This document shows positions 3,969 through 54,187 of a stretch of 64,000 nt of DNA, piece after piece. Made by a program: the position numbers and the translations under genes. The notes under the pieces were generated by a model. The model was not told where the DNA came from, ran no database searches, and was given only the letters and a program-made list of their open reading frames with translations. Source of the DNA: Sulfurovum sp. (GTDB lineage: Bacteria > Campylobacterota > Campylobacteria > Campylobacterales > Sulfurovaceae). Location: contig JALWLD010000012.1 in assembly GCA_027081115.1 (NCBI GenBank), forward strand, positions 62,001-126,000. Reading direction: 5' to 3'. Position 1 is the stretch's first letter; every line of letters starts with the position of its first letter.

Positions 3969-6080
3969 CTATTTTTTTAATTTGTAAATTTTACTGTATG
4001 GTGATGAAACAACCAGTTCAAAGAGGTTTTTATCATATTTTCCAAGCATGAACATCTGCACATACATAGAATTAAAGGTTTCTATATCCATCACAATAAA
4101 CTGACCATAACTTTTCAAATACAGAACAATCAACCCGCCTTCTGCATGGTAAAATTGTGATTGCAATTTGGTATTCCCTGCTTTATCTAACGTTGCCACA
4201 ATGAAGTATTTTGCAGGAATCTTCTGTTGCCCCATGGAGATCATACCTTTTTTTGCATCAAAGACAATCCCGTTTGCAAAACTCAATACCCCATCTTTGT
4301 TATTTGTAACAGAAGTAGGATAAAAAGTGATTCTTCTCTCTGCTTTACCTGTAGTGAGATCAAGATTCCCAAATACAGCTACTGTAGGAAAAATATTGAG
4401 CATCCGATAGGGGAGATATAGGTAAATGTCTCGTGTCTTTTTTGGTAGGACATAACTGCCATTTTCCAATTCTCCTAAAAAGATATTAGGGTCAACTTGA
4501 TCTTCTTTACCATTTTTAAACAAGGTGTTGGCCACAATAGAGTAGTTGGAGTCTACATAGGTCTCCACTGCCAAACGACTCAAATTTGCTGCTAGTTCAG
4601 GAGAGGTGGTCTGCATAATTTTAGAGATGATAAAATTATCATTGTTATGCTTTCCTCCATCAATGAGAGTAGAAGTATCAGAATAGTACCAGACAGGATA
4701 ACCATAATCCCACCACGACAAAGTATAATCCTTGCCACTTGCTATTTTATTGAGTTTATCAAGATCCTGCACCTCTGCCTTGTTTAGTACTGTTGGTACT
4801 CTATAGCCAATAATATGCATAATGTTGGGGTATATCATCGCCGCAGTTGCCAATACGACAAAAGCATACTTTATTTTTTGATCTTTAAAAAGATCTCCCA
4901 AAACAAAAAAGAGATACACTACAGACATCGCTGCAATCGGTACTGCATATACTGTAAATCGAAGTCCACCAAACAAGGCAAACATACCTATGCCTACCAG
5001 AGGTAATGCCAAAATAAATGCACGGTGCTTAAGGACCAATACAATATATCCGATCAGCGAGAGTACGACCCCTACCTGTGAACCGGATATACGGTTAGCA
5101 AACGTACTAAAAGGGATTTGTCCTGCCTCTCTTACTGTTTGAACCACAGAGTAAAAATGCAAACCACTCTCTTTTGTTCCCGTCGAAATATAATTTCCAA
5201 TTTTTCCAAGTACCAAATGAATTACATTACCAAAAAAGAGGAACAGCACAAACAGTACTCCGGCAATGATCATCGACTTTTTCTGGTCCAATGTTGATCT
5301 TTCCAGTATTATATAGAGGAAAATGAGAAGAAAGATCTTCGCAATATAGGAGTATGGGGACGCAAATTGAAAGGGAAGAAGAGAGACAAAGACCAGAATT
5401 AAAGAGAGATAGGTGGTACTGTCTTGACGATGGTAAAACACCATATAAAGGGCATACATGATCCCCATCGCATAGACAATGGAGAGTCCCGCATCATATA
5501 GAAATGGATAAATGGCTATAGCAACCGCTGCATACAACGCAGAACGCAGATTGAAATCCATGGTACTTTTCATGAGGAAGAACAGAATGATCATCGGCGC
5601 CATAGCAGAGAACATATCCGTATCATAGTATCCTGTCATCGTACGGTTATAATAACTCCAAGCAATAGAACCAAGCAATGCCGCGAAAAATCCCCAGAGT
5701 GATTCACCATATAGTCTTGCTATTAAAATAATCGGAATAACAACCAGTGAAGAGATAACCGCAGGCATATAGAGGATAATCGTCTCTAAAGAAAAAGGTG
5801 TGATCTTTGCCAATACAGTTGTGAAAAATATAACACCATAATCCCACATACCGAAAACTCTTGGGTTCTCAGCATGCAATCCAAAAAGCTCTTTTTGTGC
5901 TCCAGAGGCAAAGAAGTACCCATCATTGGTGTTGATCATCAACTCTCCATTCCAGAAAAAATCAGCATTATCTTGAAATTGGTAGACCCAGATCATACGG
6001 ATGGCAAAAGAGAATATGTAGGCCATAAGCATAAGGCCCAACATCTGTTTTGAGGTTACTTGATTGATAGTTTGATTCAC
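3969..6080 (-). CDS. pglB: Oligosaccharyltransferase PglB (STT3 family)
   Basis: 703 residues with about 13 membrane helices in the first 430 residues and a soluble periplasmic C-terminal domain. The signature WWDYGY is at residues 456-461, nearly the same position as in Campylobacter jejuni PglB. TNDGYFF (near 51-57) and GYYDTDMF (near 150) carry the catalytic acidic residues. It transfers the assembled glycan from undecaprenyl diphosphate to Asn in D/E-X-N-X-S/T sequons of periplasmic proteins. The protein has such a sequon itself (DSNYS, Asn512), so self-glycosylation is possible. The start is GTG, overlapping the stop of the GT2 gene as GTGA, with AAAGG upstream. Confidence 0.97.
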   Translation of the reverse strand: MNQTINQVTSKQMLGLMLMAYIFSFAIRMIWVYQFQDNADFFWNGELMINTNDGYFFASGAQKELFGLHAENPRVFGMWDYGVIFFTTVLAKITPFSLETIILYMPAVISSLVVIPIILIARLYGESLWGFFAALLGSIAWSYYNRTMTGYYDTDMFSAMAPMIILFFLMKSTMDFNLRSALYAAVAIAIYPFLYDAGLSIVYAMGIMYALYMVFYHRQDSTTYLSLILVFVSLLPFQFASPYSYIAKIFLLIFLYIILERSTLDQKKSMIIAGVLFVLFLFFGNVIHLVLGKIGNYISTGTKESGLHFYSVVQTVREAGQIPFSTFANRISGSQVGVVLSLIGYIVLVLKHRAFILALPLVGIGMFALFGGLRFTVYAVPIAAMSVVYLFFVLGDLFKDQKIKYAFVVLATAAMIYPNIMHIIGYRVPTVLNKAEVQDLDKLNKIASGKDYTLSWWDYGYPVWYYSDTSTLIDGGKHNNDNFIISKIMQTTSPELAANLSRLAVETYVDSNYSIVANTLFKNGKEDQVDPNIFLGELENGSYVLPKKTRDIYLYLPYRMLNIFPTVAVFGNLDLTTGKAERRITFYPTSVTNNKDGVLSFANGIVFDAKKGMISMGQQKIPAKYFIVATLDKAGNTKLQSQFYHAEGGLIVLYLKSYGQFIVMDIETFNSMYVQMFMLGKYDKNLFELVVSSPYSKIYKLKK

Positions 6081-12541: not shown

Positions 12542-13104
12542 AAGACAACTTCCAAATCATCATCAACCAATACATACTTTGCAAAGGTATCACTTGCGCT
12601 ATTATCATGAAAAACCAATGTATTTCCAGATATACCAACCCAGCCTATCTGTTTGGCAGGGATACCTACCATCAAAGCATAAGGTTTGACATCTTTATTG
12701 ACAACAGCTCCTGAACCAATAAATGCATATTCGCCTATGGTTACCCCACAAACAATAGTGGCATTGGCTCCTACAGAACAACCCTTTTTGAGTAACGTCT
12801 TTTTAAATTCCTCTTTTCTTCGAATAAATGCCCGAGGATTGACCACATTGGTAAATACCATAGAGGGTCCTAAAAAAACATCATCTTCCACTTCAACACC
12901 TTCATAAATAGAGACATTATTTTGTACCTTTACCCCATTCCCAATATTCACATGGGGACCAACAACACAGTTCTGTCCAAAAGAACACTCTTCTCCTATA
13001 TGGGTATCTGACAAAATATGAGAAAAGTGCCATATTTTTGTATTTTTCCCGATATTTACATCCTGATCTACATAGGCAGATTCATGTACAAAAAAGTCAG
13101 CCAT
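12532..13104 (-). CDS. wbpD: UDP-sugar 3-N-acetyltransferase, WbpD/WlbB-like
   Basis: 190 residues from ATG 13104, which overlaps the stop of the oxidoreductase gene by one base (TGATG); a TTG one codon earlier is the alternative. Hexapeptide repeats run through residues 8-75 ([42 protein letters not shown]) and 105-150. [19 protein letters not shown] is characteristic of the WbpD/WlbB/FdtC acetyltransferases, and [13 protein letters not shown] closes the helix. It acetylates the 3-amino group made by the WbpE-like enzyme. Confidence 0.9.
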
Positions 13105-14069
13105 CAAGTAAGCACCTTTTTACAGAAAGGATGCCAATTGCCTTTGAGCCCTACTGCATCAAGATTTCGTATGGCAGAGACTATATTGATGGAACCATAG
13201 GCCTCATCCAAGCCAAAACCATTGCCTTTCAGGATCTCCTCATAGGAGCGTGTATGCAGATCTGTAAAGCCGCCGGAAAACTCTATTTCTTCTCCATTCA
13301 CTGTAATGGAACGATATGTTCTTTGTCCTTCATCTTGTATCTCTTTGGGAATATAGTCATAATTCACAGAAAGAAACCAGCGCACATTGGCATGTTTAAG
13401 TTTGAAAGAGCCAGCATTACAATCTACAGTTTTCACATGGACAATATTCTCTTCCACTTCTCCAAAAATCCAGGTCAACATATCATAAAAGTGTACACCG
13501 ATATTTGAAGCAATACCCCCAGATTTCGCCTGATCACCTTTCCAGGAGATAAAGTACCATTTGCCTCTACTTGTCAGATAGGTCAAATCAATATCGTAAA
13601 CTTTATGGGGATCTTTTTTCAGTTCTTTTGCCACTTTTTCTTTTAGTGCGATGATGGAAGGATGCAGCCTAAGCTGCAAAATATTGTACACTTTTTGCCC
13701 TGTCTCCTGTTCAATGATCTTAAGCTGATCAATATTCCAAGGGTTCAGTACCAATGGTTTTTCACAAATGGCATCCGCACCACTCTTCAAAGCAAAGCGG
13801 ATGTGGGAATCATGCAAATAGTTTGGTGAGCAGATAGAAACAAACTCTATCTTCTTACCTGTATCTCTTCGCCATTTATCTACAAACCTATCAAAACGTT
13901 CAAACTCTGTAAAAAAATCTGCCTGAGGGAAATGACTGTCCATAATACCAATACCGTCATAAGGATCAAGTGCTGCAACAAGTTCATTACCTGTCTCTTT
14001 AATAGCACGCATATGTCTTGGTGCGATATAGCCGGCTGCACCAATGAGTGCAAAATTTTTAGACCCCAT
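13104..14069 (-). CDS. wbpB: UDP-GlcNAcA 3-dehydrogenase, WbpB/WlbA-like (Gfo/Idh/MocA)
   Basis: 321 residues. The N-terminal Rossmann domain starts [18 protein letters not shown]-binding; CEKPLVLNP (near residue 98) is the conserved Gfo/Idh/MocA motif with the catalytic Lys, and [15 protein letters not shown] carries the active-site His near 190. WbpB/WlbA oxidises C3 of UDP-GlcNAc-uronic acid to give the ketone used by the aminotransferase. The first enzyme of the route, the 6-dehydrogenase WbpA/WlbA-type, is not in the window. It is the first gene of the operon; GGGAGAG precedes the ATG. Confidence 0.88.
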
Positions 14070-14142: not shown

Positions 14143-15705
14143 TTAGGCTCCGGGGGCTTTCCACATAGATGCTGTCAAGCCTCTGTCTACCAATGTAAGT
14201 TGGTTTTCATACACTGTTTTCCAATTCTCTTTTATCTCTTGGTATACCCTATAGTTTTTCCTGTTTGGACTATATATGTTTTCCCACTCAACCAAAGACT
14301 CTGCAGCATTTTCGAGGCTAGTATAGATACCCACACCCACCCCTGCTGTCATAGCAGCACCCAGAGCAGTAGCTTCTGTTACTTTTGGTACTTTGACAGT
14401 ACACCCTGTCACATCTGCCAATATCTGACACCAGAGTGCCCCTTTGCTGGCACCTCCGGCAAAGACGATCTCATCAAAGCTAAGATTGGTAAAGGCTTTA
14501 ATTTTTTCCAGATTAATCGCTGAAACAATACAGGCATTCTCCTGTAAAGCTCTGAACATAGAAGCTTTATTGCACATTTCAGGGTCTATAGAAAGATTTA
14601 AAAAAGAGGGGGCAGCATGATACCACTTTCCATACTTCATCGAGTCAGAAAAAATAGGAATGATACCATTTGATCCAACCGGTATTTTTGAGGCTCTCTC
14701 TTCCAGTATTTCATAAACATCGATCCCTCTTTTTTCTGCCTCTATCTTTTCCAAATCACAAAAAGCATCTCTAAACCAGCGCATAATAAGCCCTGAGAAA
14801 AAAGTAATGCCTTCAGCCTGAGAGAGTCCGTCAATCACATGAGGGTTGACCCGTACAGACATATTTTCAGGAGGGGTGACACTACTTTTAAGATTGACTA
14901 CCTGTTGCCAAAATGAACCACCAAGTATTGCAACCTGCCCCTCTTTAACCACACCAAGCCCTGCAGAACCAAGCTGTACATCACCACCACCCATAATTAC
15001 CTGCGTAGAGGTTGACAAACCTGTCAACACAGAAGCTTCCTCTGTCACATATCCAATAACCGTTCCAGGTTCCAAGGGTGAAGGGAAGATATTTTCTTTT
15101 AGCCCTATTTTTTTTGCCATAGAAACATCCCAATCTCTCTTTTCCAAAGAGAAGATTCCTGTTGTACCTGCATTACTTGGATCTGTTGCAATAATCCCTG
15201 AGAGTTTGGCCAAGACCCAGTCTCCTATCATAGAGACATGGGCTACTTTTTCATACAATTCAGGTCTATTGTTTTTCAACCATAATATCCTTGGTAACGC
15301 GCCTAAAGCAAATGTTTGCCCTGAAGTTTTATAAAAATCTGCTTCAATCCCTTCATAATTCTCTTTTAAAAAACGTACCTCCGTATCGGCTCTGGCATCT
15401 ACGTTTGCCACACCCCAAAAGGCTTTCTTCTCTTTGTCATAAAGTACAATGCCTTCACGCATACTGGTAGCTGATAAAGCAGCAATGTCCGAACCTTCTA
15501 GCTTTGCACTTTTTAAAGCCTCTCGAATACACCAAACTGTCAAATCCCAGTTTGTATCTGTATCAAAAGTCATAGAGTTAGGGACATCTTCCTCTTCCAA
15601 ATGTACCCACTCTTTTTGTGCGACAGAAAGTTGTTTCCCCTGCGTATCGAAAATAACAGCACGTACAGAGCCTGTACCGGCATCTATTGCCATAAGGTAT
15701 TGCAT
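14143..15705 (-). CDS. lsrK: Autoinducer-2 (DPD) kinase LsrK
   Basis: 520 residues of the FGGY carbohydrate kinase family. The ATP site is AIDAGTGSVRAVIFD (near residues 6-20), and SMREGIVLYD, ANVDARAD, DPSNAGTTG, MGGGDVQLG, MRWFRDAFC, WYHAAPSFLNLSID and the C-terminal SMWKAPG follow the Escherichia coli LsrK sequence closely through its whole length as I recall it. LsrK phosphorylates the signal precursor 4,5-dihydroxy-2,3-pentanedione at C5. I chose ATG 15705 because GAGGAG precedes it and the kinase motif begins at once; the upstream in-frame extension overlaps the aldolase gene. No lsrACDB transporter, lsrR or lsrF lies in the window. A kinase for a related ketose is possible, but LsrK is by far the best match. 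Confidence 0.9.
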   Translation of the reverse strand: MQYLMAIDAGTGSVRAVIFDTQGKQLSVAQKEWVHLEEEDVPNSMTFDTDTNWDLTVWCIREALKSAKLEGSDIAALSATSMREGIVLYDKEKKAFWGVANVDARADTEVRFLKENYEGIEADFYKTSGQTFALGALPRILWLKNNRPELYEKVAHVSMIGDWVLAKLSGIIATDPSNAGTTGIFSLEKRDWDVSMAKKIGLKENIFPSPLEPGTVIGYVTEEASVLTGLSTSTQVIMGGGDVQLGSAGLGVVKEGQVAILGGSFWQQVVNLKSSVTPPENMSVRVNPHVIDGLSQAEGITFFSGLIMRWFRDAFCDLEKIEAEKRGIDVYEILEERASKIPVGSNGIIPIFSDSMKYGKWYHAAPSFLNLSIDPEMCNKASMFRALQENACIVSAINLEKIKAFTNLSFDEIVFAGGASKGALWCQILADVTGCTVKVPKVTEATALGAAMTAGVGVGIYTSLENAAESLVEWENIYSPNRKNYRVYQEIKENWKTVYENQLTLVDRGLTASMWKAPGA

Positions 15706-15736
15706 TTTTTCTCCTCTTCTTCTCAATGAGAAGGAG

Positions 15737-16888
15737 TTATTTCTTGAGCTTTGCTTGTTCCAATTCCCAATACTCCATATCAAAACTGTCTGGAATGGAA
15801 ATACTCCGATACCCACCAATCTTATCGGCACGTAACACTGCCATCATGGTATGTTCAACCACATCATTGATCACATCAGCCTCTTTTTGTGTCCTGCCAA
15901 ATGTAACCACACCAAACTCTTTGATTACAGCATATTTCGGTTTAGGATCCAACATAGTTTCATTGGTCTTATAGGCATTAAAATACGCCTCATAATCGAC
16001 AATATAATGTTTAAGCGCGTCTTCTATGTCATTGTCTTCCAGAACCAAAGGTACACGCTTTGTACGGATAATATGTTCTGGAGTCAGTACACCTCGGGTT
16101 ACTTTTGCTCTCAGGTTTTCCTGAGAAGCATAGTATAGTGCCAAAGGGGTTTGGTTGATATGCATGAATTTATCAATATCCAAAGCATCAATATCTAAAG
16201 ATTTTGCCTCTATTGCACCCCATTCTACACGGGCATGCTCTTCTAAAAAAGCTTCTGCCCTAGAGACAGCCTCTATCATCTTGTCATATGATTTTTTTGC
16301 ATCGTTATCAAAAGTAAAAATACCATGATTATGCAGGATAATCCCTTCACAGGCATTCCAATCAAAATTATTTTCTGTCATCTCATAAATTTTCTGTGCC
16401 AAAATAAATCCTGGCATGACATAGGGAACAATCAAAAAGTTAGGAAACAGTTCATCTATCAACTTCTTCCCATTTTTAGAATTGGAGATGGTAACCACTG
16501 CATCGGCATGGGTATGATCTACCACTTTAAAAGGAATGAGCGCATGCAGTATGGCTTCCACAGAAGGGTTTGGAGCAGTTTTGTCTATCATCGCTGCCTT
16601 TTGACCAGAAACCATCTCTGTGTCTGTAAGATTTTTCATTTTTGCCATCTCCAAAAGTGTTGCCATCTTTACAGGAGCGAAACCTTCTGCCTTAATAGAA
16701 ACCAAATCCCAACCTGAGCCTTTAACATAGAGAATCTCTTCTGCATCTACTATGCTTTTGACTGAAGTATTTCCCCCACCGTGCAGTACCAATTCATCAC
16801 TTTGACCTAAAAGGTTAGAAGTATATACTCTGAGATCAAGATCGTTTTGATACTTTTGTGCCTCTTTATCATCCCATAAATTCTTCAA
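15737..16888 (-). CDS. Class II aldolase (RhaD-type aldolase domain, no dehydrogenase domain)
   Basis: 383 residues. The opening (LWDDKEAQKY, DLDLRVYTSNLLG, LVLHGGGNTSVK) is that of the aldolase half of bifunctional rhamnulose-1-phosphate aldolase/alcohol dehydrogenases, but the short-chain dehydrogenase half is missing. Metal-binding His residues are visible in DHTHADAV (near 125) and ILHNHGIF (near 185). Such enzymes split ketose phosphates to dihydroxyacetone phosphate and an aldehyde. Lying between the LsrG-like gene (3-base gap) and lsrK (31-base gap), it may cleave a phosphorylated DPD derivative in place of LsrF; that is inference. The start is TTG at 16888 after AGGG. Confidence 0.85.
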   Translation of the reverse strand: MKNLWDDKEAQKYQNDLDLRVYTSNLLGQSDELVLHGGGNTSVKSIVDAEEILYVKGSGWDLVSIKAEGFAPVKMATLLEMAKMKNLTDTEMVSGQKAAMIDKTAPNPSVEAILHALIPFKVVDHTHADAVVTISNSKNGKKLIDELFPNFLIVPYVMPGFILAQKIYEMTENNFDWNACEGIILHNHGIFTFDNDAKKSYDKMIEAVSRAEAFLEEHARVEWGAIEAKSLDIDALDIDKFMHINQTPLALYYASQENLRAKVTRGVLTPEHIIRTKRVPLVLEDNDIEDALKHYIVDYEAYFNAYKTNETMLDPKPKYAVIKEFGVVTFGRTQKEADVINDVVEHTMMAVLRADKIGGYRSISIPDSFDMEYWELEQAKLKK

Positions 16889-16891
16889 GAT

Positions 16892-17179
16892 CTACCCTAA
16901 CACTTCTAGGTCATCAGAATATTTATGTTCACAATAAGGTTCATACGACGATTTATACACGGCATAGTGTGCAGAGGCCTTATGCCCATCTAAGGCTGCT
17001 TCATTTTCCCAGCTCTCATAAGCCATAAATTTTCTTGGATTATTTTTATATTGAAAGATCTCATAAAAGATCACACCTTTTTCTGCTTTACTTGGCACAA
17101 CCATTGCAGAAAGGAGCGCTTTCATCTTCTCTTCGCATCCCTCTTTTGCTATAAATGTTACACGTTTAGTAATTGTCAT
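16892..17179 (-). CDS. LsrG-like antibiotic-biosynthesis-monooxygenase-fold protein
   Basis: 95 residues of the ABM (dimeric alpha-beta barrel) family: TKRVTFIAKEG at the N-terminus, EKGVIFYEIFQ and the helix YESWENEAALDGHKAS followed by HYAVYK. LsrG isomerises phospho-DPD to 3-hydroxy-2,4-pentanedione 5-phosphate; YgiN and general quinol monooxygenases share the fold, so LsrG activity is suggested by the neighbouring lsrK rather than by catalytic residues. ATG 17179 has GGAG eight bases upstream and is the first gene of the three-gene unit. Confidence 0.75.
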   Translation of the reverse strand: MTITKRVTFIAKEGCEEKMKALLSAMVVPSKAEKGVIFYEIFQYKNNPRKFMAYESWENEAALDGHKASAHYAVYKSSYEPYCEHKYSDDLEVLG

Positions 17180-17209
17180 ATTGTCTCCATTGTATATTTT
17201 ATTGGAATA

Positions 17210-17235
17210 ATTATACTTATCTTTTGCTTTGTCAA
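17210..17235 (-). promoter_or_regulatory. Possible promoter of the lsrG-like/aldolase/lsrK unit
   Basis: On the minus strand TTGACA (17235-17230) and TATAAT (17215-17210) lie upstream of ATG 17179. The spacer is only 14 bp, short for sigma-70, so the -35 assignment is uncertain although the -10 is good. Confidence 0.45.
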
Positions 17236-37044: not shown

Positions 37045-40000
37045 CTAATCCCTGCTACTTAATTCATTTGCCAATTTCTTAGCCCCCTTAAAATCAGCCT
37101 TCCCCGTACCAAGTTTAGGCAATTCATCTACTTTATAGTATTCACTAGGGACAAACAAGGGGTTAAATCCAAGCTCTTTTACTTTGGCTTGCAACTCTTT
37201 TACTGCCATATCACCCTCAAGAAGTAACACTAGTTTCTCACCTTTTTTAGCATCTGGAAGAGCTGCTACAGCCACCTGGTCATTTTCGCCAAGGATTGTG
37301 ACTATCTCTCGCTCTACCAGACCTAGACTCACCATCTCTCCTGCTACTTTGGCAAAGCGACTGTAACGGTCTACAATGGTAAGGAAACCATCTTCATCTA
37401 AACGGCCTTTGTCTCCGGTAATATACCAACGTATCCCATCTAATTCTTTGATGACTGATGCTGTCTTTTCCGGGTCTCCGATGTAGCCTTTCATAATCTG
37501 CGTACCACCGATGAGTATCATCCCCTCTTCTCCTGTTTTAAGCTCTTCAAAAGTCTCTGGTTCTACTATCTTAAAACTACTTCCAGGTAGAGGGAGACCT
37601 ACCGTACCCGGCTTATTTCCTACCTGTGCTTTCCAGGAGTCCTGCATAAGGACATCTGGTATATTGACAGAAGCGACCGGCGTGGTCTCAGTTGCACCAT
37701 AGCCCTCATATATCGTACAACCAAACTTCTCTTTAAATGTCTCACGTATCTCATTGGGTAGTTTCTCTGCTCCAGCCACCACAATACGTAGATCTTTAAA
37801 CATCAAAGGATGCAATTTTCTATTTTTGACATAGAGCCTAAAAAATGTTGCTGTAGCAAAAAGCATAGTCGCTTCATAAGTTGCAGCCATTTTACCAATA
37901 CCAAAACCATCCGTAGGGTCAGGATGGCAAGCCACAGGGATACCTTCTACCAAAGGTAGAAGTGTAGTAACAGTCAAACCAAAGGAGTGAAATATTGGCA
38001 GTGTTCCTAACATTACATCTTCATCGCCCGGGTTAAGCAATGTCGTGGTTTGCTTTATATTTCCCATCATGTTTTTATGACTCAAAGCGATCCCCTTAGG
38101 GGTACCTTCACTTCCACTTGAGAAGAGTATGGCCGCAGTATCTTCACTATGACTCTCTTTGACAAAAAAGAGCGACAATAAGGAGGCAGGTAATAGCTTT
38201 ACCCAAACATACATCCAAATACTTTGTATCTTTTTCATCTCCTCGTTTAACGTTTCAAGGTAAATAACCTCTACCTGATCAAGCACACGGCTTAAATCAA
38301 ACCCTTTTGCTTTTAATTTTATGACAAACTGTTTTGATGCTACGATTTTCTTAATATTGGCAATCTCCAAAGCATACAGCAAACTCTCCTCTCCACTGGA
38401 ATAATTGAGGTTTACTACTGTTTTTCCTAAAGTCAATACCGCCATATTGGTCATAGAACCACCCACGGATGTAGGGAGAAGGAGTCCAATATTTTGACTC
38501 TCTTTCAAAAATGATTTTAGGCTTTTTGCTATCATCAAGGTTCCAGCAATAAATTTATGGCCACTTACTTCTATTCCTGTAGAGTCAGCCATACAAAGCT
38601 TGTTCCCTACCTCTTTTGCTACGCTTATCCATGCCTTTTGTAACACAGGTAAATCCTCGGCATACTCCCTCCAACTCAAGACCGAGAGATCAAATACAGC
38701 TTTTTTGATTTCAGAAGCTGTACTATGAATATCCATGACTGTCCCAAAACTTACAGTGATCTCTTTACTCTTTTTACGCTTCATTTTCTGAGAAGCATGA
38801 GAGAAGTTGTCTTCCCACAGCCCCCGTAAATAAAATGGTACAATGATCGCATTGTCCGCTTCTTTGGCCGCTAATTCAAACCCTTTATTAAACACACCCA
38901 AATGTCCATTTCGGGAGAGATGACCTTCTGGGAAAAGGGCCACGGTTTCACCATTGTTTAGTGCTTCTGTCACTTTTTCAAGTGCCCCTCTACTTCCTCT
39001 GCTAGAGATAGGAATTACTTTAAAAAAATCTAAAAATGGTTTTAAGTACCATTTGCTGTAATATCCTCTATCCATCACAAAACGTATCTGTTTGGGATAC
39101 GCAATCTGTAGCATAGCCCAGTCTAAAAAAGAGACATGATTTCCCAAGAGAAGTACACCTTTTTGTGCATCTATATTGCGAAGTCCTTCTACACTTAATT
39201 GATACCTAAACCCTATAATGAAGCGTACCATATAGCGTACCATGGATTGAGGCAGCTTCACAAAAGTATACCCCATACCTAAAAAAGCAATAAGAGACAT
39301 AAGATAAAACAGTGTAGCAGACGAAAGAGAAAAATAGGCGAACAATGCTGTAAGAATAAGAAATACAAACATAAACGTATTTTGCATAAAATTATTCCCC
39401 GCAAGTACTTTCCCCAAGGTCCCAAAAGGAGTGGCAAACTGGATCAATGCATTCAACGGGACAATAAAAAGTCCGGCAAAAAACCCAAATACAAAGAGTG
39501 CCATCCCCAGGGCATAGAGATTCTCCAAAGAGGGAATAAGATAAAGAGAAAAGGCTATACCCATTGCACCTATGGGGATAATACCTGTCTCTATATAGTT
39601 TTTACTGACACGGCCTGCAAAAAGGGAACCTATAATAATCCCTATACCTGAAAAGGCTAAGAGCAATTGTGCCGTTACCGTATTGGTAATACCAAGATGT
39701 CCTTTGAGATAATCCCCAAAAATAGCAACAACCACTTGCGAGATACCCCAAAAAATACTCAAACCAATAATACTAAGCCATACAGGTCTATTCTCTTTGA
39801 TTACTGCTATGTTACTTTTGAGGTAAGAGAGGTTTTTATACTGTTTAACTTCAAACCCTGATTGCTCTTTGAAACTAACTGCTTTAAACTGTTTAACTAA
39901 GCGTTTTGCTAATATATACTCAACAATACTGGCACCTATTAGCAGATATCCCACAGGAGCAATATAGGACAATATTTCAGAAGGGATCATACTTCGATCC

Positions 40001-40500
40001 TGCAAAAGATGTTCGAAAAATATCGAATAAACCACTGCACCAACCAAAATAGAGACAATTGTGATGGCTTGCACTAACGCATTGGCCTCTGCCAACTTCT
40101 CATTTCCTGTCATCTCTTTGATCAAACCATATTTTGCAGGAGAGTAGATGGCACTCTGTGCCGCCAGTACAAAGGTAAGACCAAATGCAAACCAAAACCA
40201 TCCCATATAATAAGAAAACAGTATCAATATAGTAATGACTACTGCCAAACCTGATGCATACTCGATAATCTTTGTTTTAGGGTATCTGTCAGCAATATAT
40301 CCTGCAGGGGAAAAAAGGAAAATAAAAGGCAGAAGGATCAAAGCATTGACAATAGCGGTCAAGATAATGAGCTCAGGTCCTTCATAAGCTTTAAAAATCG
40401 TATTTTGTAAAATGATTTTATGCCCAAGATCTGTCATGGCATTAAGAAAGATAATCAATATATAAGGTGTAAACCCCGAAACTTTAAAGAGTTGCTTCAT
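37045..40500 (-). CDS. Three-domain LplT-PlsC-Aas fusion: lysophospholipid transporter, acyltransferase and acyl-ACP synthetase
   Basis: 1151 residues. Residues 1 to about 410 are a 12-helix MFS transporter like LplT. Residues about 430-620 are a PlsC acyltransferase with NHVSFLD (HX4D) and FPEGHLSRNG. Residues about 650-1150 are an AMP-forming acyl ligase: ILFSSGSEGTPKGIALSHKN, YGATETTPV, TGDKGRLDEDGF and the catalytic Lys in LGTGKADF. Together it could import lysophospholipid and re-acylate it, as LplT and Aas do separately in Escherichia coli. It begins directly at the end of the MerR gene. Confidence 0.93.
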   Translation of the reverse strand: MKQLFKVSGFTPYILIIFLNAMTDLGHKIILQNTIFKAYEGPELIILTAIVNALILLPFIFLFSPAGYIADRYPKTKIIEYASGLAVVITILILFSYYMGWFWFAFGLTFVLAAQSAIYSPAKYGLIKEMTGNEKLAEANALVQAITIVSILVGAVVYSIFFEHLLQDRSMIPSEILSYIAPVGYLLIGASIVEYILAKRLVKQFKAVSFKEQSGFEVKQYKNLSYLKSNIAVIKENRPVWLSIIGLSIFWGISQVVVAIFGDYLKGHLGITNTVTAQLLLAFSGIGIIIGSLFAGRVSKNYIETGIIPIGAMGIAFSLYLIPSLENLYALGMALFVFGFFAGLFIVPLNALIQFATPFGTLGKVLAGNNFMQNTFMFVFLILTALFAYFSLSSATLFYLMSLIAFLGMGYTFVKLPQSMVRYMVRFIIGFRYQLSVEGLRNIDAQKGVLLLGNHVSFLDWAMLQIAYPKQIRFVMDRGYYSKWYLKPFLDFFKVIPISSRGSRGALEKVTEALNNGETVALFPEGHLSRNGHLGVFNKGFELAAKEADNAIIVPFYLRGLWEDNFSHASQKMKRKKSKEITVSFGTVMDIHSTASEIKKAVFDLSVLSWREYAEDLPVLQKAWISVAKEVGNKLCMADSTGIEVSGHKFIAGTLMIAKSLKSFLKESQNIGLLLPTSVGGSMTNMAVLTLGKTVVNLNYSSGEESLLYALEIANIKKIVASKQFVIKLKAKGFDLSRVLDQVEVIYLETLNEEMKKIQSIWMYVWVKLLPASLLSLFFVKESHSEDTAAILFSSGSEGTPKGIALSHKNMMGNIKQTTTLLNPGDEDVMLGTLPIFHSFGLTVTTLLPLVEGIPVACHPDPTDGFGIGKMAATYEATMLFATATFFRLYVKNRKLHPLMFKDLRIVVAGAEKLPNEIRETFKEKFGCTIYEGYGATETTPVASVNIPDVLMQDSWKAQVGNKPGTVGLPLPGSSFKIVEPETFEELKTGEEGMILIGGTQIMKGYIGDPEKTASVIKELDGIRWYITGDKGRLDEDGFLTIVDRYSRFAKVAGEMVSLGLVEREIVTILGENDQVAVAALPDAKKGEKLVLLLEGDMAVKELQAKVKELGFNPLFVPSEYYKVDELPKLGTGKADFKGAKKLANELSSRD

Positions 40501-52567: not shown

Positions 52568-53639
52568 TTGATTCTCCTTCATTTTCCTGTTCTCTCAACT
52601 GTCCACAGGCAGCAGAAATATCCAACCCTTTAGACTCACGGATCGTACAATGCAAACCACGTGAAGTCAAAAATTCCTGAAATTTTTGCATATCTTTTTC
52701 AGAAGGACGTTTAAATTCTGTACCACCATAAGGATTAAAATAAATTAAATTTACTTTTGCTTTAATACCATCCAGCAAAGAGAGTAACTTCTTTGCCGCA
52801 GAGATATCATCATTGACATCTTTGATGACAAGATACTCGAACATCACCCTTTTTCTATCATTGACAGGGAAATTTTTTACAGCTGTGATAATAGAAGCAA
52901 TATTATACGCTTTGTTAATAGGCATCAACTGTTGACGCAACTCATCATCTACCGCATGTAAAGAGATTGCAAGATTGATACCAAGTTCCATTTTCCCAAG
53001 CTTTTCTATCTTGGCCGAAAGACCTGAAGTAGAAATAGTTTGTCTGTGTGTCGCAATGGCAAACCCTTCCGGGTCTGAAAATATCTTGACAGACTTGACC
53101 ACATTCTCAAGGTTGTCAAGAGGCTCACCCATACCCATATATACGATATTGACACGACGGTTGGCATCGATCTCATTGTCTTTTTTGATCATACGCAACT
53201 GTTCCGTGATCTCACCAGCTGTCAGATTACGCATAAAACCACCTTTTGCAGTCAAACAAAAAGCACACCCTACCTTGCACCCTACCTGAGAGGAGATACA
53301 GACTGTATAGCGTTCCTGATGCTTTACAGAGCCATCTTCATGATACTCTTTATCTCTCATCAAAAGTAAGACAGCTTCAACTGTATGTCCGTCATACAAT
53401 TCAAAGAGATATTTACGACTTCCATCTATACTGTTTTGTACTGTCAAGGTCTTGAGTGGCATCAGAGTATATTCAGTATCTAATTTCTCTCTCATCTCTT
53501 TGGGAAGATTTTTCATCTCTTCAAAAGAATCAGCATATTTATGATAGATCCAGTTGTATATCTGTTTGGCTCGGAAAGAAGGCTTGATAAGGGAAGCCAA
53601 TTCCTCTTTTGTCAGGTCTTGTATAATCTTCTTGGACAT
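52560..53639 (-). CDS. rlmN: 23S rRNA (adenine-2503-C2) methyltransferase RlmN
   Basis: 359 residues. The radical SAM cluster is [14 protein letters not shown] near residue 125, [10 protein letters not shown] near 165 binds SAM, and the methyl-carrying Cys is near the C-terminus in [18 protein letters not shown] and [10 protein letters not shown] at the start are RlmN features. It methylates A2503 of 23S rRNA and A37 of some tRNAs. Shares one base with the stop of the phosphorylase-like gene. Confidence 0.96.
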
Positions 53640-54187
53640 TATTGTTTAGCTGCCATTTGCTCTGCGATCATCTTTTTCACATAAGCATCCAATTTAGCCA
53701 TACCCTCTTTCTGGTTTTTCAAAAAATCATCATGAGCATTCTCATCACAGTAATTGGTTACTACAAATATTCCACCTGCAGAAATACCGTAAAACTGCGC
53801 TACTTTCATTACTGCAAAAAATTCCATATTTTCAATCTGTACATTTTGTGCGGTATAGTGTTTGCCAATCTCTTTATCTGTGGTAATATAATTTGAAGAG
53901 TTAACCAGTGTTTCACGTGAAACATCTTTCAAAGAGGTAACAACATTGTCTATAGGACTGTATGACTTTCCTGAGAAAAAACTATTTTCTATATTCGCAG
54001 CAGTCTTAGACTCAATAATATCAAAAATCTTTTTTTCTCCATATGAACCTGCTGTACCTACAAACAAAATATAGTCTGGTTTTTTACTTTCACAAAGACG
54101 GGTCAAATTGATCGCCACCTCCATCATACCAATACCTACAGGCATTGCAAATTCGAATTGTTCACTTTTTCCAGCACATATGATCAT
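53639..54187 (-). CDS. Nucleoside phosphorylase/hydrolase-family protein (short form)
   Basis: 182 residues, shorter than MTAN or DeoD (about 230). [11 protein letters not shown] near residue 44 and the [17 protein letters not shown] segment near 125 (purine-side Glu-Met-Glu pattern) belong to the PNP/UDP phosphorylase superfamily, and [14 protein letters not shown] replaces the usual catalytic SD(x)A. It could act on a nucleoside such as MTA or futalosine, but the missing N-terminal part makes activity uncertain. Codons for DVSRETL contain the second parS site. Between hisF (2-base gap) and rlmN. Confidence 0.75.
53909..53924. other. parS chromosome partition site 2
   Basis: TGTTTCACGTGAAACA, identical to site 1 and to the ParB consensus, 1,868 bp away and inside the phosphorylase-like gene, coding on the minus strand for Val-Ser-Arg-Glu-Thr. 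Two exact copies of a 16-bp palindrome so close cannot be chance. Confidence 0.9.

Follow-up and report, generated by a model that had tools for sequence, protein, structure and literature searches.

In the Lsr pathway for autoinducer-2 (AI-2), phospho-DPD (P-DPD) is isomerised by LsrG, and the product is split by LsrF into DHAP and acetyl-CoA (PMC8016206). A paper on the LsrF structure had proposed an aldolase-like break of the C2–C3 bond, giving acetate and DHAP (PMC2728841). A class II aldolase is the established last enzyme of the DHAP shunt, where 5-deoxypentulose 1-phosphate is the substrate of DrdA (PMC6079011). The Sulfurovum locus analysed here lies in a stretch of 64,000 nucleotides (the window). 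An ABM-domain protein, a class II aldolase and LsrK are encoded there, in this order, by one tight minus-strand operon:

17207–17235, minus strand: possible operon promoter of the sigma-70 type (TTGACA, spacing of 17, AATTAT; consensus scan)
16892–17179, minus strand: ABM-domain protein, 95 aa (Pfam ABM), probable phospho-DPD isomerase with an LsrG-like role
15737–16888, minus strand: stand-alone class II aldolase of 383 aa that starts with TTG (PF00596), proposed to convert a phospho-DPD-derived diketone to DHAP and a C2 unit
14143–15705, minus strand: LsrK, autoinducer-2 kinase, 520 aa (matches to NF008187 and PDB 5ya0)

The aldolase starts 3 bp past the stop of the ABM gene, and LsrK starts 31 bp past the aldolase. 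The initial annotation had described LsrK, an LsrG-like protein and a class II aldolase as one operon, and the coordinates of all three were confirmed. The candidate promoter matches 10 of 12 consensus positions, but such sites are about as many as expected, and the match is no functional evidence. The downstream oxidoreductase gene (13104–14069) was considered as a fourth member of the operon and rejected, since it adjoins the trio in only a few relatives' loci; in relatives it groups with sugar-nucleotide genes. Also downstream of the trio, a glycan cluster encodes an oligosaccharyltransferase-like membrane protein of 703 aa (3969–6080), and proteins resembling it (cluster C8) were found in Sulfurimonas loci, there too downstream of LsrK.

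The kinase belongs to the FGGY family and scored 874 bits against the autoinducer-2 kinase equivalog model NF008187 (cut-off 528); it is not an MTR kinase. It shares 56% identity with E. coli LsrK and matched the solved structure of that enzyme (PDB 5ya0) with an E-value of 1.6e-194 and 650 bits. All four residues of the proposed DPD site of E. coli LsrK (T21, R93, Q278 and F312), whose roles come from docking and modelling work (PMC8016206, PMC8028047), have conserved equivalents in the alignment. Such strong homology suggests that DPD is the substrate phosphorylated by the kinase.

The assignment of the ABM protein is weaker. That it is LsrG-like, as first annotated, holds at the level of the superfamily (Pfam ABM, 51 bits) but not at that of the LsrG model NF007791, where it reached 27.5 bits and the cut-off is 135; its alphaproteobacterial counterparts scored 108–121 bits on the same model. 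An H(K/R)xxxHY motif is common to the protein and LsrG, while the NLRFDVL and GPRxK stretches of LsrG are missing, and in phmmer searches the protein was closer to uncharacterised ABM proteins than to LsrG. It may nevertheless act, like LsrG, as a phospho-DPD isomerase.

In line with the initial annotation, which had recognised the aldolase half of RhaD-type fusions, the match of the aldolase is confined to the aldolase part of PRK08324/RhaD-ADH fusions, and a dehydrogenase (SDR) domain is absent. Its metal site (H125, H127, H188 and E111) is conserved; the three histidines are kept across all aldolase groups compared, and E111 is kept except in rhamnose-type enzymes, where three out of four have Asp. 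An AlphaFold model (pLDDT 90) resembles the folds of 3m4r, fuculose-1-phosphate aldolases (FucA) and DrdA, the last both with and without DHAP (6btg, 6btd). Compared with the bifunctional rhamnulose-1-phosphate aldolase/SDR enzymes (TIGR02632, PRK08324), the protein shares the metal ligands of their homologous aldolase part but lacks the SDR domain, and no rhamnose genes accompany it. Both the DHAP shunt (DrdK-DrdI-DrdA or MtnK-MtnA-aldolase) and the trio consist of three steps that end, or in the trio would end, in a class II aldolase that has three His at its metal site and releases DHAP; the trio differs in having an FGGY kinase instead of an MTR-kinase-like one, an isomerase of another family and an aldolase of the PRK08324 type.

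The genome contains luxS, outside the window. The annotated lack of LsrACDB, LsrR and LsrF was borne out for the proteins searched: tblastn with E. coli LsrA, LsrB, LsrF and LsrR gave no match in the window, and LsrB, LsrF and LsrR were unmatched anywhere in the Sulfurovum genome. Among the 19 LsrK-bearing genomes described below, LsrB had one match, at 19% identity, in a genome other than that of Sulfurovum; LsrF had only partial matches at 30% in three, again not in Sulfurovum; and LsrR had no match in any, although tblastn with the same LsrR query finds the protein in alphaproteobacterial loci at 41–45%. Both a kinase of the MtnK/DrdK type and an isomerase of the MtnA/DrdI type are absent from the Sulfurovum genome.

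The initial annotation had suggested looking at whether luxS and the three genes co-occur across Campylobacterota. Among 200 genomes of the phylum, LsrK scored over its cut-off in 19, from ten genera, and exactly the same 19 carried the aldolase (E<1e-100) and the ABM protein (at least 56% identity). The probability of this co-occurrence by Fisher's test is about 6e-27, uncorrected for relatedness, and in the genera of mixed status (g12, g33 and g44) all three genes are missing together. A co-occurrence this perfect indicates that the gene arrangement is not due to chance. Further, since several genomes (G177, G196, G165 and G125) carry the kinase gene apart from those of the aldolase and the ABM protein, the association is more than conserved gene order. 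luxS was present in 163 of the 200 genomes and in all 19 LsrK carriers, a link that on its own is statistically weak (p 0.03).

The gene neighbourhoods of the 80 closest LsrK loci were analysed; wherever a taxon was stated, it belonged to Campylobacterota. In the DNA around these loci, the aldolase family was found in 60 and the ABM protein in 54, usually in the order ABM-aldolase-LsrK, and MetK and MqnE were recurrent neighbours. In genus g40, luxS and the aldolase-ABM pair are divergently oriented within about 100 bp of each other (L091, 9594–11684; L092, 6847–8936) with lsrK adjoining, and these loci sit beside 2-oxoacid ferredoxin oxidoreductase genes; luxS of Sulfurovum adjoins the same oxidoreductase gene as luxS of g40. 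In Sulfurospirillum and Arcobacter, a small cupin comes directly after LsrK, as one does in Salmonella, and the two cupins are 53% identical (L071, L021, L023, L018, L027, L031, L035, L068; L134, 10574–10924). A close homologue of this cupin occurred in only two of the 200 genomes, both LsrK carriers.

Some Sulfurimonas neighbourhoods of LsrK contain MtnK, MtnA and an aldolase-SDR fusion. Clusters of this composition from Sulfurimonas relatives (L103, 2547–4508; L104, 2435–4396; L105, 5306–7267) look like DHAP-shunt type methylthioribose/5-deoxyribose pathways. The genomes from which these three loci come possess no aldolase other than this fusion to go with LsrK and the ABM protein.

The strongest evidence for the role of the aldolase came from a comparison with lsr loci of another phylum. 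A homologous stand-alone class II aldolase was encoded in all ten distinct alphaproteobacterial lsr loci examined (S. meliloti pSymB, read twice, being counted once), and LsrF in none of them. The aldolase directly follows lsrB, where E. coli has lsrF, in nine loci (Sinorhizobium, Ensifer, Rhizobium, Shinella, a plasmid filed as Roseateles, Thalassospira, Paracoccus, Alloyangia and Tritonibacter), and these nine have an ABM gene after lsrK whose product is 41–54% identical to E. coli LsrG. In the tenth, from Roseicitreum, an aldolase-ABM pair lies near LsrR and LsrK, and the transporter is of a different type. Conversely, the lsr loci of E. coli, Salmonella and Lacticaseibacillus contain LsrF and no such aldolase. 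That the aldolase takes over the job of LsrF is, in terms of comparative genomics, a well-supported prediction.

In comparison with the Lsr system of E. coli and Salmonella, the Campylobacterota trio is alike in its LsrK over the cut-off, its ABM-superfamily protein and the expected logic of phosphorylation, isomerisation and cleavage. It differs in the lack of LsrACDB, LsrR and LsrF, in the divergence of its ABM protein and in having a metal-type class II aldolase where the enterobacteria have LsrF, a thiolase with a Schiff-base fold. With the alphaproteobacterial operons it shares LsrK, an ABM (LsrG) protein, a homologous stand-alone aldolase and the absence of LsrF; unlike them, it has neither a transporter nor LsrR. 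The aldolases of the two phyla are about 35–40% identical and form separate clades, that of Campylobacterota with support values of 100/98 and that of Alphaproteobacteria with 96/97. Within each, the LsrK-linked stand-alone aldolases lie apart from the MtnKA-linked fusions. Rhamnose-cluster aldolases form a clade of their own. On this tree, which has a midpoint root and several long-branch rows, the association with LsrK would therefore be either ancient or gained more than once. No residue pattern set the LsrK-linked aldolases of both phyla apart from other aldolases: shared specificity residues were rejected, because only three positions were common to them, compared with four, six and nine in control pairings.

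We consider it likely that the trio serves the intracellular disposal of DPD, with P-DPD as its substrate and DHAP as its product, whichever cleavage chemistry is used. DPD from the cell's own LuxS would be phosphorylated by LsrK, and P-DPD would then be converted by the ABM-family protein, in the manner of LsrG, to 3-hydroxy-2,4-pentanedione 5-phosphate. In the third step, where genome comparison places the aldolase, this enzyme would replace the CoA-dependent thiolase LsrF and cut the C2–C3 bond to give DHAP and a two-carbon unit. In the likeliest chemistry, the hydrated diketone would be split into acetate and DHAP with the help of the metal, the metal aldolase stabilising the DHAP enediolate; alternatively, reduction to 5-deoxypentulose 1-phosphate might be followed by DrdA chemistry, giving acetaldehyde and DHAP. 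This agrees with the initial proposal that a transporter-less LsrK module processes DPD and that the aldolase splits a phospho-DPD derivative to DHAP, a proposal favoured by the co-occurrence of the genes, luxS in all carriers, its adjacency in g40 and the alphaproteobacterial operons without LsrF. The score of the kinase with its conserved site residues, the recurrent MetK and MqnE genes and the cupin shared with the Salmonella locus also speak for disposal of DPD. Since a transporter, a receptor and a repressor are all missing, the expected role would be metabolic clean-up with recycling of carbon, and not reception of a signal. On the other side stand the distance of the ABM protein from the LsrG cut-off, the lack of a residue pattern common to the LsrK-linked aldolases, three genomes (G126, G163 and G186) that have LsrK and the ABM protein but no aldolase except one fused to an SDR and lying next to MtnK-MtnA, and a Sagittula plasmid operon (L127, 3333–6947). 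The last encodes an FGGY kinase, an LsrF homologue 72% identical to that of E. coli and a class II aldolase of the same family, with no LsrK, LsrG or LsrB.

The fusion in these three genomes indicates that the aldolase can belong to another pathway, and the pairing with methylthioribose genes that the initial annotation had regarded as damaging to its proposal does exist in part. Read in this way, the trio would be a kinase-isomerase-aldolase DHAP shunt acting not on DPD but on 5-deoxyribose or methylthioribose, which arise as by-products of radical SAM enzymes and of polyamine synthesis. Such shunts with a class II aldolase are established (PMC6079011), the radical SAM enzyme MqnE is a frequent neighbour, and the aldolase family also occurs as an SDR fusion in MtnK-MtnA clusters of both Campylobacterota and Alphaproteobacteria. 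Nonetheless, we judge this quite unlikely: the pairing does not extend to the Sulfurovum genome, which has neither MtnK nor MtnA; genomes with MtnA and no LsrK (G053, G057 and G145) have no such aldolase; the kinase is an LsrK; and the unfused, LsrK-linked aldolases fall in clades separate from the fused, MtnKA-linked ones. Catabolism of rhamnose- or fucose-type deoxysugars by a rhamnulose 1-phosphate aldolase, suggested by the match of the aldolase part to the RhaD_aldol-ADH model TIGR02632, is very improbable and was rejected on cut-off (220 bits against 568), domain make-up and context, there being no nearby isomerase, rhamnulokinase or sugar transporter; the separate clade of the rhamnose-cluster aldolases also argues against it.

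Disposal of DPD by reduction of the P-DPD isomer by a dehydrogenase, with the resulting 5-deoxypentulose 1-phosphate then cleaved to DHAP and acetaldehyde, is somewhat unlikely; as this is a special case of the disposal explanation, the two estimates are not exclusive of each other. It would require only the ordinary retro-aldol chemistry of DrdA (PMC6079011), and the three genomes with LsrK, the ABM protein and only the fusion are consistent with it. However, the SDR domain is missing from the LsrK-linked aldolases of both phyla, no reductase gene recurs in the LsrK neighbourhoods, and a stand-alone relative of the fused SDR was discarded as a candidate, since the other 16 genomes, which are fusion-free, gave only distant matches (about 21–36% identity). 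Stand-alone aldolases accompany LsrK and SDR fusions accompany pathways with an aldehyde product, which would favour a non-aldehyde product for the LsrK-linked enzyme. Lastly, the trio might tune extracellular AI-2 signalling (quorum quenching) rather than serve metabolism, since removal of DPD by LsrK would be expected to lower the AI-2 exported. We hold this to be unlikely, as neither of the two proteins searched for in this respect, LsrB and LsrR, was found in the whole genome.

Taken as disposal of DPD, the trio is, in our view, a new variant of AI-2 processing and not a signalling system, and it is wider than the initial annotation had supposed; a search limited to open-access literature found no description of such a module. 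luxS occurs in many bacteria for which no AI-2 receptor is known, which raises the question of what becomes of their DPD; the trio offers a testable answer for part of Campylobacterota. More tentatively, it is possible that the class II aldolase, as a metal-dependent enzyme, carries out a CoA-free retro-Claisen cleavage of phosphorylated AI-2 to acetate and DHAP, that it has replaced LsrF as the partner of LsrK in two phyla, and that the Campylobacterota trio is a purely intracellular means of disposing of LuxS waste. If so, the trio would explain how some luxS-only bacteria deal with DPD. The comparison also predicts that alphaproteobacterial lsr operons use a class II aldolase instead of LsrF, among them the operon of the model organism S. 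meliloti, which lacks LuxS according to PMC2561040 and to the title of a reference cited in PMC2728841. Moreover, the presence of lsrK need not imply AI-2 signalling.

Elsewhere in the window, a short nucleosidase-like protein of the PNP_UDP_1 family (53639–54187, 182 aa) was considered as an MTA/SAH nucleosidase of the same pathway and rejected, as it fell under every NCBIfam cut-off, including that for futalosine hydrolase. From its sequence alone, a protein of 1151 aa (37045–40500) reads as a fusion of an MFS transporter, an acyltransferase and an acyl-CoA/ACP synthetase.
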